Shown here one piece after another: positions 18,739 through 29,792 of a DNA stretch of 35,352 bases. The DNA lies in the NCBI GenBank assembly GCA_016193365.1, contig JACPSI010000058.1, positions 1 to 35,352 of the forward strand. Direction: 5' to 3'. Within the stretch, counting starts at the first letter, position 1; every line of letters starts with the position of its first letter. Origin of the DNA: Ignavibacteriales bacterium (GTDB lineage Bacteria > Bacteroidota > Ignavibacteria > UBA10030). The notes beneath the pieces are model-generated. The model was not told the origin of the DNA. It was given only the letters and a program-made list of their open reading frames with translations, and made no database searches. The translations under genes were made by a program, and so were the position numbers.

Positions 18739-20871
18739 CTACTGAGGTTTCTTAAACACGTCCTCGCTCACCCCGCTGTTGATCTTCACCGAGTTCACGA
18801 TGGATTGCGACTGCTTCTGGCCGTTTGCGAAACTCTCGATTTTGTGCGGCACCATGACACCGCTGACATCGCGGTAGTCAGAAATCATTTCTTCGGTGTC
18901 CGCGGGACCTTGCATTGTTCTTCCCCGATAGACTCGCTTGACTACCAGTGACGTTTGTGGGTCGATGAATAACCTCAACGTTGAATTCGTCGGATTGTGT
19001 TTTACAAACACCACCTGCGCGGGTTTATCGTTGACCTTGTCGTCCTTGAGATATTGCACTACATACTCCGCGTTGTCTATGCTTCTCAACACCGTGTAAA
19101 CATTGATCGCAATTTGCTTGGTGAGTTCTTCTTTCTGAGAAGCTGGAAGATCCTGAGTTCCCATAGGCGACTTCATCCAGCCCTTCTCGCCGTCAAACGC
19201 GCTGGCCATTTCTCCCATCTGGGTTTTCATCGTTTGTGCAACTTTATTGGGAGCGACCCAGGTCATGCTCGCTTCCATCGACATTTCACCCATCGGTGTG
19301 TTCATCGTCATTTGAGAGCTTTGGGCCATGTCCTTCATTGCGAGCACGCGCCCGCCGCCGAAAGCAGCAAGAGACTTCTTCAAGACCTCCTTGCCTTTCG
19401 AAATGGTCTCGGGCGTGGCATCGGGGATTTTCTCAGGCGGTGAGGGAATCGCGATGTCAACGGTCCTCACGGATCCGAGTGCGCTCATCGGTTCGTCGAA
19501 GTCAGCATCCTTTCCAACAACGAGCATTGTCAGAGCGCCGGGATTCCAGCGCTTTGCAATGGCCTCATTAACGGATTGCTTCGTGGCAGCCTGAACTTCT
19601 CTTTGCTGTTTCTGCGTATAGTCTTTTGGATATCCGTAAAACTCGAGAGTCATGAGTCGATTAATGATTTCACCCTTTGTGTCAAACTGAAACACATAGG
19701 AATTCAGGAATGATTCCTTCGCGAATTTCAGTTCGTCGTCCGTCACTCCATTTTTCACGACGCCGTCGAATTCGCGCAGTATCGAGCGCACCATTTTCAC
19801 CGTCGTGCTGGATTTTGTTGAGCCGCCCATGCGGAAGATGCCCGGATAATCCCAGCTTTCACCCCAGAAGCTGAACACGGAATATGCAAGCCCTTCTTCG
19901 GATCGTACTTTTTTGAACAGTCGCGAGGCGAACGCTCCGCCAAATGCCTGGTCGGCAAGGTTCAACTGCGAACTCTCTGGATCCTTCAACAATCCTCCGA
20001 GGTGGCCGATACCAATCTGGGATTGGTTCACATCGTCTTTCTTGATAAAGTTCACACTCCGTTGAGATGTCATCCTCGGTTCCGGCACGGGCGGGAAGTT
20101 CACTTCCTGTCTCGGCCAATCCGAAAAAGTTTTTTCTATTTTGGATTTCAATTCATCTGTCTTGAAATCTCCCCAAAACGCAACGATAATGCCATTGGGC
20201 ACAAAATACTTTTTGTGAAAATCCACCATATCCTGTTTTGTGATGTTCTCAACGGTTGCGTATTCCGTAAGGCGTGCATACGGATGGTTGGGGCCATAGA
20301 TCAAGCGGGTGAATTCGCGGCCGATAATGGCGCCAACCTGGTCGTTGCGTCGGGAAATGCCAGAGCGAGCCCCGATCTTTGCCAAATCGATCTTGTCCTC
20401 ACGGAACGCAGGGTTTCGCAGCAGGTCAGCGAGAATGCTCAGGCCGAGGTCGATATCTTCACGCAGAACTGAAAGGTTCGCTCCGCCCGAACTCGTCCCG
20501 ATAAACGTTTCCACGGACGCGCCCACGCGCTCGAGCATCTCGTCGATTTCATCTCCGGTTTTCGAAGCTGTCCCGCCCGTTCGCATCACCTGCCCCGTCA
20601 TCGACGCAAGGCCAACCTTGTCTCCGGGTTCATAGCGAGATCCTGTCTTTACCATTACTGAGCCGTTGATGACCGGAAGGTTGTGATCTTCCAACAGGTA
20701 GACAACCATTCCGTTGCTGAGCTCGAAACGCGCGGGGTCAGGAATTTGAATCTCCCGCATTTTCGGATACTGAAGCTGTTTGTAATGCTTTGGCCTGACG
20801 GCCTGTGAGAAAGCACAAACCGCAGAGACAACAAACGCCAGTGTGAGGATAAATATGCGATGAGTTTTCAT
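18739..20871 (-). CDS. M16-family peptidase-like subunit without HxxEH, with C-terminal lipoprotein-sorting-like domain
   Basis: 710-residue exported protein (signal peptide MKTHRIFILTLAFVVSAVCAFSQ). Residues ~40-470 form a complete pitrilysin-type pair of M16 halves, but the place of the zinc motif HxxEH reads MTGQVMRTGG, so this subunit cannot bind catalytic zinc. The second half keeps the R/Y substrate site region (SRLFKKVRSEEGLAYSVFS). It is probably the non-catalytic partner of the gene upstream, as in heterodimeric M16B pairs. Residues ~490-710 are an added domain (FGGGRVLAMKDM, GEKGWMKSPMG, LFIDPQTSLVVKR) similar to LolA/outer-membrane lipoprotein-sorting folds. The ATG is preceded by AAGGAG, and the upstream M16 gene ends 10 bases before it. 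Confidence 0.9.
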   Translation of the reverse strand: MKTHRIFILTLAFVVSAVCAFSQAVRPKHYKQLQYPKMREIQIPDPARFELSNGMVVYLLEDHNLPVINGSVMVKTGSRYEPGDKVGLASMTGQVMRTGGTASKTGDEIDEMLERVGASVETFIGTSSGGANLSVLREDIDLGLSILADLLRNPAFREDKIDLAKIGARSGISRRNDQVGAIIGREFTRLIYGPNHPYARLTEYATVENITKQDMVDFHKKYFVPNGIIVAFWGDFKTDELKSKIEKTFSDWPRQEVNFPPVPEPRMTSQRSVNFIKKDDVNQSQIGIGHLGGLLKDPESSQLNLADQAFGGAFASRLFKKVRSEEGLAYSVFSFWGESWDYPGIFRMGGSTKSSTTVKMVRSILREFDGVVKNGVTDDELKFAKESFLNSYVFQFDTKGEIINRLMTLEFYGYPKDYTQKQQREVQAATKQSVNEAIAKRWNPGALTMLVVGKDADFDEPMSALGSVRTVDIAIPSPPEKIPDATPETISKGKEVLKKSLAAFGGGRVLAMKDMAQSSQMTMNTPMGEMSMEASMTWVAPNKVAQTMKTQMGEMASAFDGEKGWMKSPMGTQDLPASQKEELTKQIAINVYTVLRSIDNAEYVVQYLKDDKVNDKPAQVVFVKHNPTNSTLRLFIDPQTSLVVKRVYRGRTMQGPADTEEMISDYRDVSGVMVPHKIESFANGQKQSQSIVNSVKINSGVSEDVFKKPQ

Positions 20872-20881
20872 TGTCGTCTCC

Positions 20882-22314
20882 TTAGTTCAACGGTTCGATC
20901 ATGCCAATGGTGCGGTTCGTAGTGACGAAAACCTGTTGAGCGACCCGTTGCACGTCGGGGGCGGTCACTGCGTTGATTTCGTCAAGCCGTGTAAAGAGCT
21001 TTCGCCAATCTCCCATCTGAATCTGGTAAAACGTCAGCTGGCCCGCCATTCCGGCATTCGATGAAAGCGACCGGATGAGATTGGCTCGAGCACGGGTCTT
21101 GACCGCTTTCAGGTCTTCGTCGCTGACCGGATCTTTTTTCAACTTTTCGATTTCCTCTTCGATTGCCGCCTGACATTCATCATTGGTTTTCCCTTGAGCC
21201 GGGACGGCGAAGAAGGCGAACAAGTTCGGATACTTGTTGCCAGGGAAGCCCGAAAAACCGAAGACTGCAATCGCGAGCTTCTTGTCCCGCACGAGCGAGC
21301 GATAGAGGCGTGATGTTCTGCCCGAGCTTAGCAAATCCGAAATCACTCCGTACGTTGCGTTGTCCGGGCTGTTGATGGAACCTTTTTTGTATCCCATAAG
21401 GAAAATTCTCTGCGACTGTTCTTTGAGTACGACGCGCCGTTCGTTGTTCTGGGGCGGCTCGACCGTTCTCACGGGCTCGGGCTTGGGAGCGGCAGGGATC
21501 CGACCGAAATACGCTTCGGCGAGTCTCTTCACTTCTTTGACCTGAACATCGCCGACAACGGCGATCACCATGTTCGAAGGCACATAATATTTCCTGTAAA
21601 ACGCCGCCGCCTCTGATTTTGTTATGCCTTGAAGATCCGACATATGACCGACAACAGGGTCTCTGTAAGGGTGTGACTTGAACGTTACGGAAAGAAATTC
21701 TTCGATCAGCTTTCCTTGAGGATTGCTTTCGGTGCGCAATCTGCGTTCTTCCATCACGACGTCCTTCTCTTTATAGAAGTCGCGCAACACCGGGTCGACA
21801 AAACGCGAGGATTCCAGCGAGAACCACAGTTCCAGCTTGTTCGACGGCAAGCTGAAATAGTATTGGGTGGCTTCTGCGCCGGTGCTGGCGTTGAGGCCAA
21901 CACCGCCGTTTTGCTCGATGGCCTGTCCGAATTCATTGTTTTCGACAAGCTTTGCGCACGCATCCTGTTTCTTCTCGAATTCGGCTTTTAATTTTGAAAG
22001 CCTTGCTGTGTCCGCTTTCTCCCCCCTGTTGTGCTCGTCTCGCCAGGCCGTCCACGTTTTGTGCCTTTGAATGCAAGGTGCTCAAAGACGTGAGCGAGTC
22101 CGGTGATTCCCCGACTTTCGTTCACCGCGCCGACGTCGACGTATGTGTGGAATGATACCACGGGTGCGTCGTGGCGCGGGAGAACCATGAACCTGAGCCC
22201 ATTCTTGAGCGTGAATTCGACGACCTGTTTCTGGACCTCTTTAAACCCGTCCTGTGCCCAAACGATGGGCACGAAAAGAAAAAGGACAATCAATACGGCA
22301 AATGGTTTGCGCAT
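20882..22314 (-). pseudogene. M16-family zinc peptidase (catalytic subunit), frame broken by short internal deletion
   Basis: Exported pitrilysin-type peptidase. The 5' part, from ATG 22314, has a signal peptide and the zinc motif HVFEH (H75, E78, H79) followed by LAFKGTK, then runs out of frame and stops at 21988. The rest of the family sequence continues in another frame from about 22056: WRDEHNRGEKADTARL, NGGVGLNASTG, LPSNKLELWF, VVMEERRLRTESNPQG (third zinc ligand Glu), YVPSNMVIAVVGD. Homologues of this type normally have about 20 further residues (TIGT..Y..EK.L motif) between FKGT and this point, and these are absent, so more than one base is missing. It may be an assembly error rather than a dead gene. 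It lies 10 bases upstream of the inactive partner. Confidence 0.82.
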
Positions 22315-23829: not shown

Positions 23830-25776
23830 ATGTCATACCAACTCATCACTGACCTCATGCCCTCCGGCGACCAGCCCGAAGCCATAAGGGAAACGTTCAC
23901 CATTTCCAACGTCATCGGACAATTCGATAAACCCGTCCTCGTCATGTCGCATAACAAGACGCTGGCCGCGCAGCTCTACGCGGAGTTCAAAGGATTTTTT
24001 CCAAAGAATCGCGTTGAGTTTTTCATAAGCTACTACGATTACTACCAACCCGAGGCGTATGTCCCCACGACGGACACCTACATTGCCAAGGATTCCTCAG
24101 TCAATGACGAGATTGACAGGTTGCGCTTGCGTGCAACGAGTGCACTCCTGAGCGGAGACACGAATGTCATCGTTGTTGCCTCGGTCAGTTGTATCTATGG
24201 CATCGGCGCGCCGGAAGACTGGATCAGTCAAACATTGTCATTGAAAGAAGGCCAGAAAGTGGGACGACAGGAGGTTCTCAAGAAACTTCTCGATTTGCTC
24301 TACACACGTAACGACTACGAATTTGCGCGTGGAACATTCAGAGTGAGGGGCGACGTTGTCGAGGTCATTCCCGGCTACGAGAATGAAGAAGCCGTGAGAA
24401 TTGAATTCTTCGGCGATCAGGTCGAGAGACTATCCTACATCAACAAAACGGACGGCAGAATCATCGAAGAGACCGACTATGAAACGATATATCCTGCCAA
24501 ACAATTCATCACGACGCGTCAGAGTATAGAACGTGCGATCAACGGCATTTACGCCGAGTTGAACGAACGTTCGGAAGAATTGCGCGCGATGGGCAAACTC
24601 GTTGAAGCCCAACGACTCCAGCAGAGGACACGGTTTGACATCGAAATGATGCGCGAGGTTGGCTACTGCTCTGGCATCGAGAATTATTCGCGCCATCTCG
24701 CCGGAAGGCCTCCAGGCTCTAGACCATTTTGTCTGCTGGATTATTTTCCAAAAGGCTTTCTCACCGTCATTGACGAGTCGCATGTCACTGTTCCACAAAT
24801 CGGCGGGATGTATGCAGGTGACCGTTCGAGGAAAACCACTCTGGTGGAGTACGGCTTCCGATTGCCGTCTGCACTCGACAATCGTCCCCTGACCTTCGAA
24901 GAATGGGAATCCATAGTCGGCCAGATCATTTTTGTCAGCGCAACGCCGGGAGATTTTGAGCTGGAGAAATGCAAAGGCGTCGTGGTCGAACAGGTTATCC
25001 GCCCGACGGGGCTCGTGGACCCGGATGTTGAAGTGCGCAAAAGCAAGAATCAAATCGACGACCTCATTGCAGAAATCCGCGACCGCGCAAAAAGCAAGGA
25101 GCGAACTCTTGTTACAACACTGACGAAACGTATGGCCGAGGATTTGACAGAGTATCTCTTGAATATCGGCGTAAAAGTGCGATACGTTCACTCCGAAGTG
25201 GACGCGCTGGAGCGCGTGGAAATTCTGCGCGACCTCAGACTCGGTGAGTTCGACGTTCTTGTGGGCGTCAACCTTCTCCGGGAGGGGCTCGATTTGCCGG
25301 AAGTCTCGCTTGTCGCAATCATCGACGCAGATAAGGAAGGCTTTCTGCGCTCCGACCGTTCGTTGATCCAAACCGCAGGCCGCACCGCGCGCAATGTCAA
25401 CGGCAAGGTTATTTTGTATGCAGACACAGTAACCGGCTCTATGAAACGAATGATCGACGAAACGAATCGTCGTCGGAAGAAACAGGTTTCCTACAACGAT
25501 GACCATGGAATCACCCCTGTCACAATCTATAAATCCGTGGAAGAGGTGATGGCCGCAACCGCAGTCGCCGACGTGAAAGCCAGCCGTGATGAACGGAATC
25601 TTCGCTCAAGAATCTCTAAGATTTCCGAACCAGTCGCCAAATACCTGACGAAAGAACAAAAAGAAGATCTGCTGGCGGAGTTGAGGACCGAAATGAAGCG
25701 GGCGGCGAAGGACCTTGAATTTGAACGTGCGGCGGAGCTAAGGGATGAAATAGAAAGGCTTGAAGAGAAGAAATGA
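23830..25776 (+). CDS. uvrB: Excinuclease ABC subunit B lacking the Walker A (P-loop) segment
   Basis: UvrB loads on damage with UvrA and hands over to UvrC in nucleotide excision repair, using a helicase-like ATPase. Nearly all signatures are here: [63 protein letters not shown] (motif II), [38 protein letters not shown] and the C-terminal UVR helices ([19 protein letters not shown]). However, residues 20-22 go from AIR-E directly to TFTISNVIG. The normal protein has about 22 more residues there, including GVTGSGK, so the ATP-binding P-loop is missing in frame. Motif VI reads QTAGRTARN instead of the usual QTIGRAARN. If the sequence is right the ATPase cannot work. The stop overlaps the comF start (ATGA). 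Confidence 0.93.
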
Positions 25777-28974: not shown

Positions 28975-29792
28975 ATGTCTTACTACGGTAACTACTATCG
29001 CCCATCAGGATTTGGAGGGTTCTCGTTTTTCCCTCCAGCTATTAAGACCCTGTTAATCGCAAACGGCGTCGTATTTTTGTTTACTTCACCGATGCTATTT
29101 GGCCAGTTTAAGTTTGACGGTGTGAGTCTCACTAGCTTTCTCCACCGATACTTCGCTTTGATTCCTGAAGGGTTTCGACCAGGAATTGGTTCAAGTGAGG
29201 CCTGGAATTTCTATCCATGGCAGCTGATTACGTACCAATTCATGCATTCGGATTTTTTGCACCTTTTTTTCAACATGCTTTTTGGGTTATGGATGTTTGG
29301 AATGGAGATAGAGCATATTTGGGGAACTAAAAAGTTCACGATTTTTTATCTCTCTTGCGGAGTAGTCGCAGGATTATGCCAGTTATTTCTCGCACCAATA
29401 CTTGAGCATTCTGTCGCGCCGGTCGTTGGAGCCTCCGGGGCTGTGTTCGGCGTTCTTGTTGCTTTTGCGATGTTGTTTCCCGACCCGCGCATCTCGGTGG
29501 AGCATTTGCGGGGTACATCTTCCTTCTTTACGACTCCGGGAAAATGCCCTTTCAGGATACCGTCGACCGGATCAGCTGGTCTTTAAACAAATTTTCCGCT
29601 AAGTGGACATCAAAAGATGCTAATGCCGTCGATGCAAAGATTGTCGATTTTGTTGAAAAGAAAACCGACGAACGCAGCGAGCATCAGCGGAGAATCGATG
29701 AAATCCTCGACAAAATCAGTCGCAGCGGTTATCAAAGCCTGAGCGAAGATGAAAAGAAGACCTTGTTTGAAGCAAGCAAAAAGTTGAATTGA
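28975..29792 (+). pseudogene. Rhomboid-family intramembrane serine protease, internal deletion with frame change
   Basis: Inner-membrane rhomboid of the Bacteroidota type. Frame 1, from ATG 28975, gives the first membrane helices, HSDFLHLFFN with the HxxxN oxyanion motif (H96, N100), and the catalytic VVGASGAVFG (S154), then AFAMLFPD at 170. After 29484 the frame yields unrelated residues and stops at 29586. In another frame from 29487 the family resumes as AHLGGAFAGYIFLLYDSGK, which carries the catalytic His of the last core helix, followed by a cytoplasmic tail ending in DEILDKISRSGYQSLSEDEKK. The normal segment between LFPD and AHLGG (about 40 residues, one membrane helix) is missing. Both catalytic residues exist in the DNA but not in one frame. 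Deletion or assembly error. Confidence 0.85.

Follow-up and report, generated by a model that had tools for sequence, protein, structure and literature searches.

M16 peptidase pairs and the subfamily in the window

In M16 peptidases the first subunit binds zinc through the HxxEH motif and a distal glutamate, while the partner completes the active site (PMC12731061). The closest described systems are the M16B heterodimers SPH2681/SPH2682 from Sphingomonas (PDB 3amj) and TTHA1264/TTHA1265 from Thermus. In these systems, as at the locus studied here, a gene encoding HxxEH is adjacent to a gene that lacks HxxEH and carries an R..Y-type motif. The locus lies in a window of 35,352 nucleotides (the whole stretch of DNA analyzed) from a draft metagenome-assembled genome (MAG) of an Ignavibacteriales bacterium. 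The intact protein from a genome of the same genus matches the active subunit of the Sphingomonas heterodimer (PDB 3amj, E 2e-53), and by their sequences the intact relatives look like ordinary M16B-type pairs of one catalytic and one non-catalytic subunit. The subfamily in the window (18739-22314) and its relatives (L034-L096) nevertheless differs from the Sphingomonas and Thermus proteins, in that the interval from HxxEH to the zinc-binding glutamate region is longer by approximately 45 residues, so that approximately 120 residues separate HxxEH from V(V/I)xEER. The partner is also distinct, at approximately 710 amino acids with a C-terminal extension, and the window copy of the catalytic subunit is set apart further by the absence of part of the extra stretch and the loss of its reading frame.

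The partner gene is intact in the window (18739..20871, minus strand, 20871-18739) and encodes 710 amino acids with two M16 domains (PF05193, E 1.5e-35; PF00675, E 1.6e-10). The first-pass annotation had described this partner as lacking HxxEH, which would leave the broken gene as the only active subunit of the two. The broken gene does carry HxxEH, and the partner lacks it in the window and in every relative where the next open reading frame (ORF) was found. A regular expression search located the R..Y-type motif in the partners of the relatives. The partner thus has what is expected of a non-catalytic subunit: M16 domains, no HxxEH, an adjoining catalytic gene, and, in the relatives, an R..Y-type motif. 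The window copy of the partner also has a weak LolA-like match. The hydrophobic N-terminus of the catalytic subunit suggests that the protein is exported.

The genome that includes the window holds other HxxEH-bearing M16 genes, at least two of them (on contigs C41 and C53), so it would not be without an M16 peptidase in any case. The C53 gene (L193, G000:C53:43057-44070) has an in-frame TAG shortly before the expected C-terminus.

The catalytic-subunit gene and its missing 58 bp

The catalytic-subunit gene runs from 22314 to 20882 on the minus strand, and its frame is broken between 22061 and 22060. From the ATG at 22314 the frame reads MRKPFAVL...GITGLAHVFEHLAFKGTK, and HVFEH, which is the zinc-binding HxxEH motif (22078..22092, read as 22092-22078 on the coding strand), is followed by ...LAFKGTK, where the family sequence ends. 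The resulting 5' fragment (21988..22314, minus strand; PF00675, E 9e-8) is an ORF of 108 codons consisting of the hydrophobic N-terminus, HVFEH, and 22 out-of-frame residues before the stop at 21988. The next segment of the family, KTWTAWRDEHNRGEKADTARL..., adjoins immediately in another frame that remains open to 20885 and stops at 20882. This 3' remainder (20882..22060, minus strand) has 87% amino acid identity to the same-genus relative. Pfam assigns Peptidase_M16 to both fragments and Peptidase_M16_C to the second, so that two domains found in a single frame in the relatives are split over two frames in the window. HVFEH lies in the N-terminal domain, as in an M16B catalytic subunit, but the polypeptide as assembled does not include the distal glutamate ligand, because its frame stops at 108 amino acids, before the glutamate region. 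The break is confirmed, and the frame change just after HxxEH, with the next family segment following at once in another frame, is as it was first described.

The closest relative compared is the same-genus genome G001 (L034/L005; contig JACQPT010000019.1, Ignavibacteriales, NC_groundwater_1314). A blastn alignment to it splits the gene into two collinear matches of 79% and 78% identity; these share 2 nt of the window, and in the relative 58 bp lie between them. MAFFT alignment with five relatives places an identical 58-bp gap at the identical position. The junction falls between 22061 and 22060 (22060..22062, minus strand), with the AC at 22062-22061 ambiguous, and the residues absent from the window correspond to TTVIGTKDYRKEKIALEEL of the same-genus relative. 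The earlier suggestion of a deletion of about 60 bases that is not a multiple of three was accurate, and the claim that homologues have about 20 additional residues here, including a TIGT..Y motif, agrees with the 19-20 residues found at this site in every relative read. The distance between the end of HVFEHLAFKG and VVMEER is 302 nt in the window, and the closest relatives have 360 nt (120 residues) there.

Approximately 55 intact M16 homologues from Ignavibacteria, Acidobacteria, Zixibacteria, and other groups were compared. The spacing from HxxEH to the glutamate is 119-123 residues in nearly all of them and 111 and 113 residues in two remote ones; none is as short as the window. No relative naturally lacking the segment of approximately 20 residues was found among the homologues compared, and the frame break is absent from all of the relatives. 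Homologues sharing the gap, together with a single-base error in the reads, had been named as the observation that would reduce the break to a simple indel, and no homologue sharing it was found among the approximately 55. The junction has 2 nt of certain microhomology and no nearby direct repeat, so a repeat-mediated deletion was rejected. A scan of viral contigs for the exact junction gave no match.

Both parts of the broken gene appear to be under strong purifying selection. Against G001, the upstream part has a dN/dS of 0.06 and the partner one of 0.04, although these ratios are rough because synonymous sites are near saturation. For the downstream part dN is 0.07 with synonymous change saturated, which is close to the values for intact neighbors. 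Such selection on both parts argues against a long decay, and the rough ratios suggest that the gene was under purifying selection until recently, whatever the cause of the break.

Other breaks in the window and in the draft genome

The break is not specific to the M16 gene. In uvrB (23830..25776, plus strand), comparison with relatives shows an in-frame loss of 66 bp (22 amino acids) with its junction near 23889/23890. The gap removes the QLAEGVIRGDKHQTLLGVTGSGK-type sequence that forms the Walker A motif and is kept by the aligned relatives, and the NCBIfam UvrB model matches the window protein only from profile position 43. A gene for a rhomboid-like membrane protease (28975..29792, plus strand) has, in comparison with the same genus, a frame-breaking deletion of 109 bp at 29485/29486, and the gap and frame change fall between the GASGA motif and AHLGG. 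Conserved genes within 7.5 kb thus have three deletions (58, 66, and 109 bp) found only in the window, and microhomology at their junctions does not exceed a few nucleotides. No N occurs in the window contig. In G001 an assembly break (C138/C97, at the end of L174 and the start of L176, with a 141-bp overlap) falls within the same stretch of uvrB that the window lacks.

The draft genome that includes the window (G000) has 167 contigs and is 97% complete. Samples of 1.08 Mb of G000 and 0.50 Mb of G001 were compared, so the census covers approximately one third of the former and one fifth of the latter. Approximately 136 kb aligned between the samples, and in the approximately 106 kb of this that lies outside the window G000 showed no clean deletion of at least 18 bp inside a gene. 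For one further 20-kb comparison the counterpart was not found. At the protein level, 114 ORFs of G001 had a counterpart in the sampled part of G000, and five convincing breaks were found in G000: M16, uvrB, rhomboid, a Lon-like ATP-dependent protease, and alaS. The reverse comparison of 118 ORFs gave no convincing break. The Lon-like protease gene, which is conserved, has a frame-shifting 11-bp tandem duplication (L281, G000:C52, 2228-2249). Apparent breaks at L264, L287, L191, L271, and the window overlap near 8.2 kb look like extensions of upstream or overlapping ORFs and were rejected, and two short four-helix-type genes (L291 and L274) were left out of the count.

The alaS gene on contig C23 (L206, 1-2371) is frameshifted near codon 394 and is a mosaic, with a divergent middle of approximately 42% G+C between flanks of approximately 50%. 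The only other copy in the sampled part of G000 is a 3' fragment on contig C107 (L295), which differs from C23, being 84% identical over a 212-bp overlap. The bin is probably a mixture of related populations, though its contamination is given as 0. An organism without a working alanyl-tRNA synthetase (AlaRS) is not viable. Since this enzyme is essential and the only alaS found is broken, that break cannot be the true state of the genome, and at least some of the breaks are assembly defects.

Contig ends in G000 share overlaps of exactly 141 or 121 bp, the pattern seen in short-read assembly with a de Bruijn graph. The only N-run in the 1.08 Mb is seven N long (L190, G000:C9, 8111-8117), with GAGACGATG repeated on both flanks, and lies in a gene that is presumably 3-hydroxyacyl-CoA dehydrogenase-like. 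Insertion of Ns at scaffold joins despite overlapping flanks is a known scaffolding error, and public MAGs hold incomplete or incorrect protein-coding genes through local assembly errors (Genome Res. 2020;30:315, PMC7111523). The join at G000:C9 8111-8117 resembles the errors described there; however, clustered losses of 58-109 bp are not described, and neither "deletion" nor "frameshift" occurs in the main text of that report. As in a MAG affected by assembly error, breakage in G000 extends to other genes (uvrB, rhomboid, Lon-like protease, and alaS), the essential alaS among them. Blanket removal of Ns from scaffolds was considered as a source of the deletions, but is weakened by the one N-run kept in the bin and by the approximately 106 kb without a comparable deletion.

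Origin of the break and its meaning

The M16 break is probably a local defect of the draft assembly and not biology. The two nearby deletions and the broken alaS place the defect most likely in the assembled sequence; the same observations leave the enzyme loss in the living organism that the first-pass annotation had implied without support. The loss of the 58-bp stretch from the assembled contig would belong to a cluster of small, localized defects in the draft MAG, arising perhaps by local misassembly or by post-assembly editing where related populations co-occur. The mechanism has to accommodate the junction: where certain microhomology amounts to 2 nt, shared k-mers alone would hardly lead a de Bruijn assembler to make such a join, and a junction that arose in assembly requires either reads that span it or an editing step. 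Because the three deletions within 7.5 kb are unmatched in the other sampled contigs, the cause appears to be local.

The main alternative, which is unlikely, is a genuine and very recent deletion in a dominant or co-occurring strain that inactivated the M16 catalytic subunit, with UvrB and the rhomboid protease inactivated by separate events. The contig is free of N at the junction, the join has almost none of the microhomology that a pure graph artifact would need, none of the M16, uvrB, and rhomboid genes is strictly essential, and purifying selection on the fragments also fits a very recent break. However, this explanation needs three independent, nearly blunt losses of 58-109 bp within 7.5 kb, one of them the Walker A motif of UvrB, in a genome with no other sign of decay, and the one alaS detected in this bin is broken as well. 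The stronger proposal is improbable: that in one population of Ignavibacteria the nearly blunt deletions of 58-109 bp are real, arose in a local burst, and recently disabled nucleotide excision repair (through the UvrB Walker A motif) together with an M16 peptidase and a rhomboid protease.

A natural frameshift, in which -1 slippage at the AAAA run joins the frames and yields a protein without the 19 residues, is very hard to reconcile with the comparisons and was rejected. Slippage by -1 at 22057-22060 would indeed bring ...FKGTK and TWTAWRDEH into one frame, but the run is of four A only, none of the relatives is broken or similarly shortened here, and the 19 residues that would be absent directly follow the zinc-binding helix. 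A single-base sequencing error at the A-run as the whole explanation has nothing in its favor except the frame change itself and is refuted by the alignment, since, as had been anticipated, no one-base change can supply the residues encoded by the 58 bp missing relative to the same-genus genome.

If the break is an assembly defect, the M16 gene in the organism is probably intact, and its product would be the zinc-binding member of a peptidase pair of the ordinary M16B type. This assembly would mislead annotators, who would record the loss of the M16 subunit, of UvrB, and of the rhomboid protease, together with a broken alaS, and species-representative drafts of this kind enter surveys of gene loss. 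Clusters of short deletions that are unlike all relatives should be checked against the reads before loss of function is claimed.
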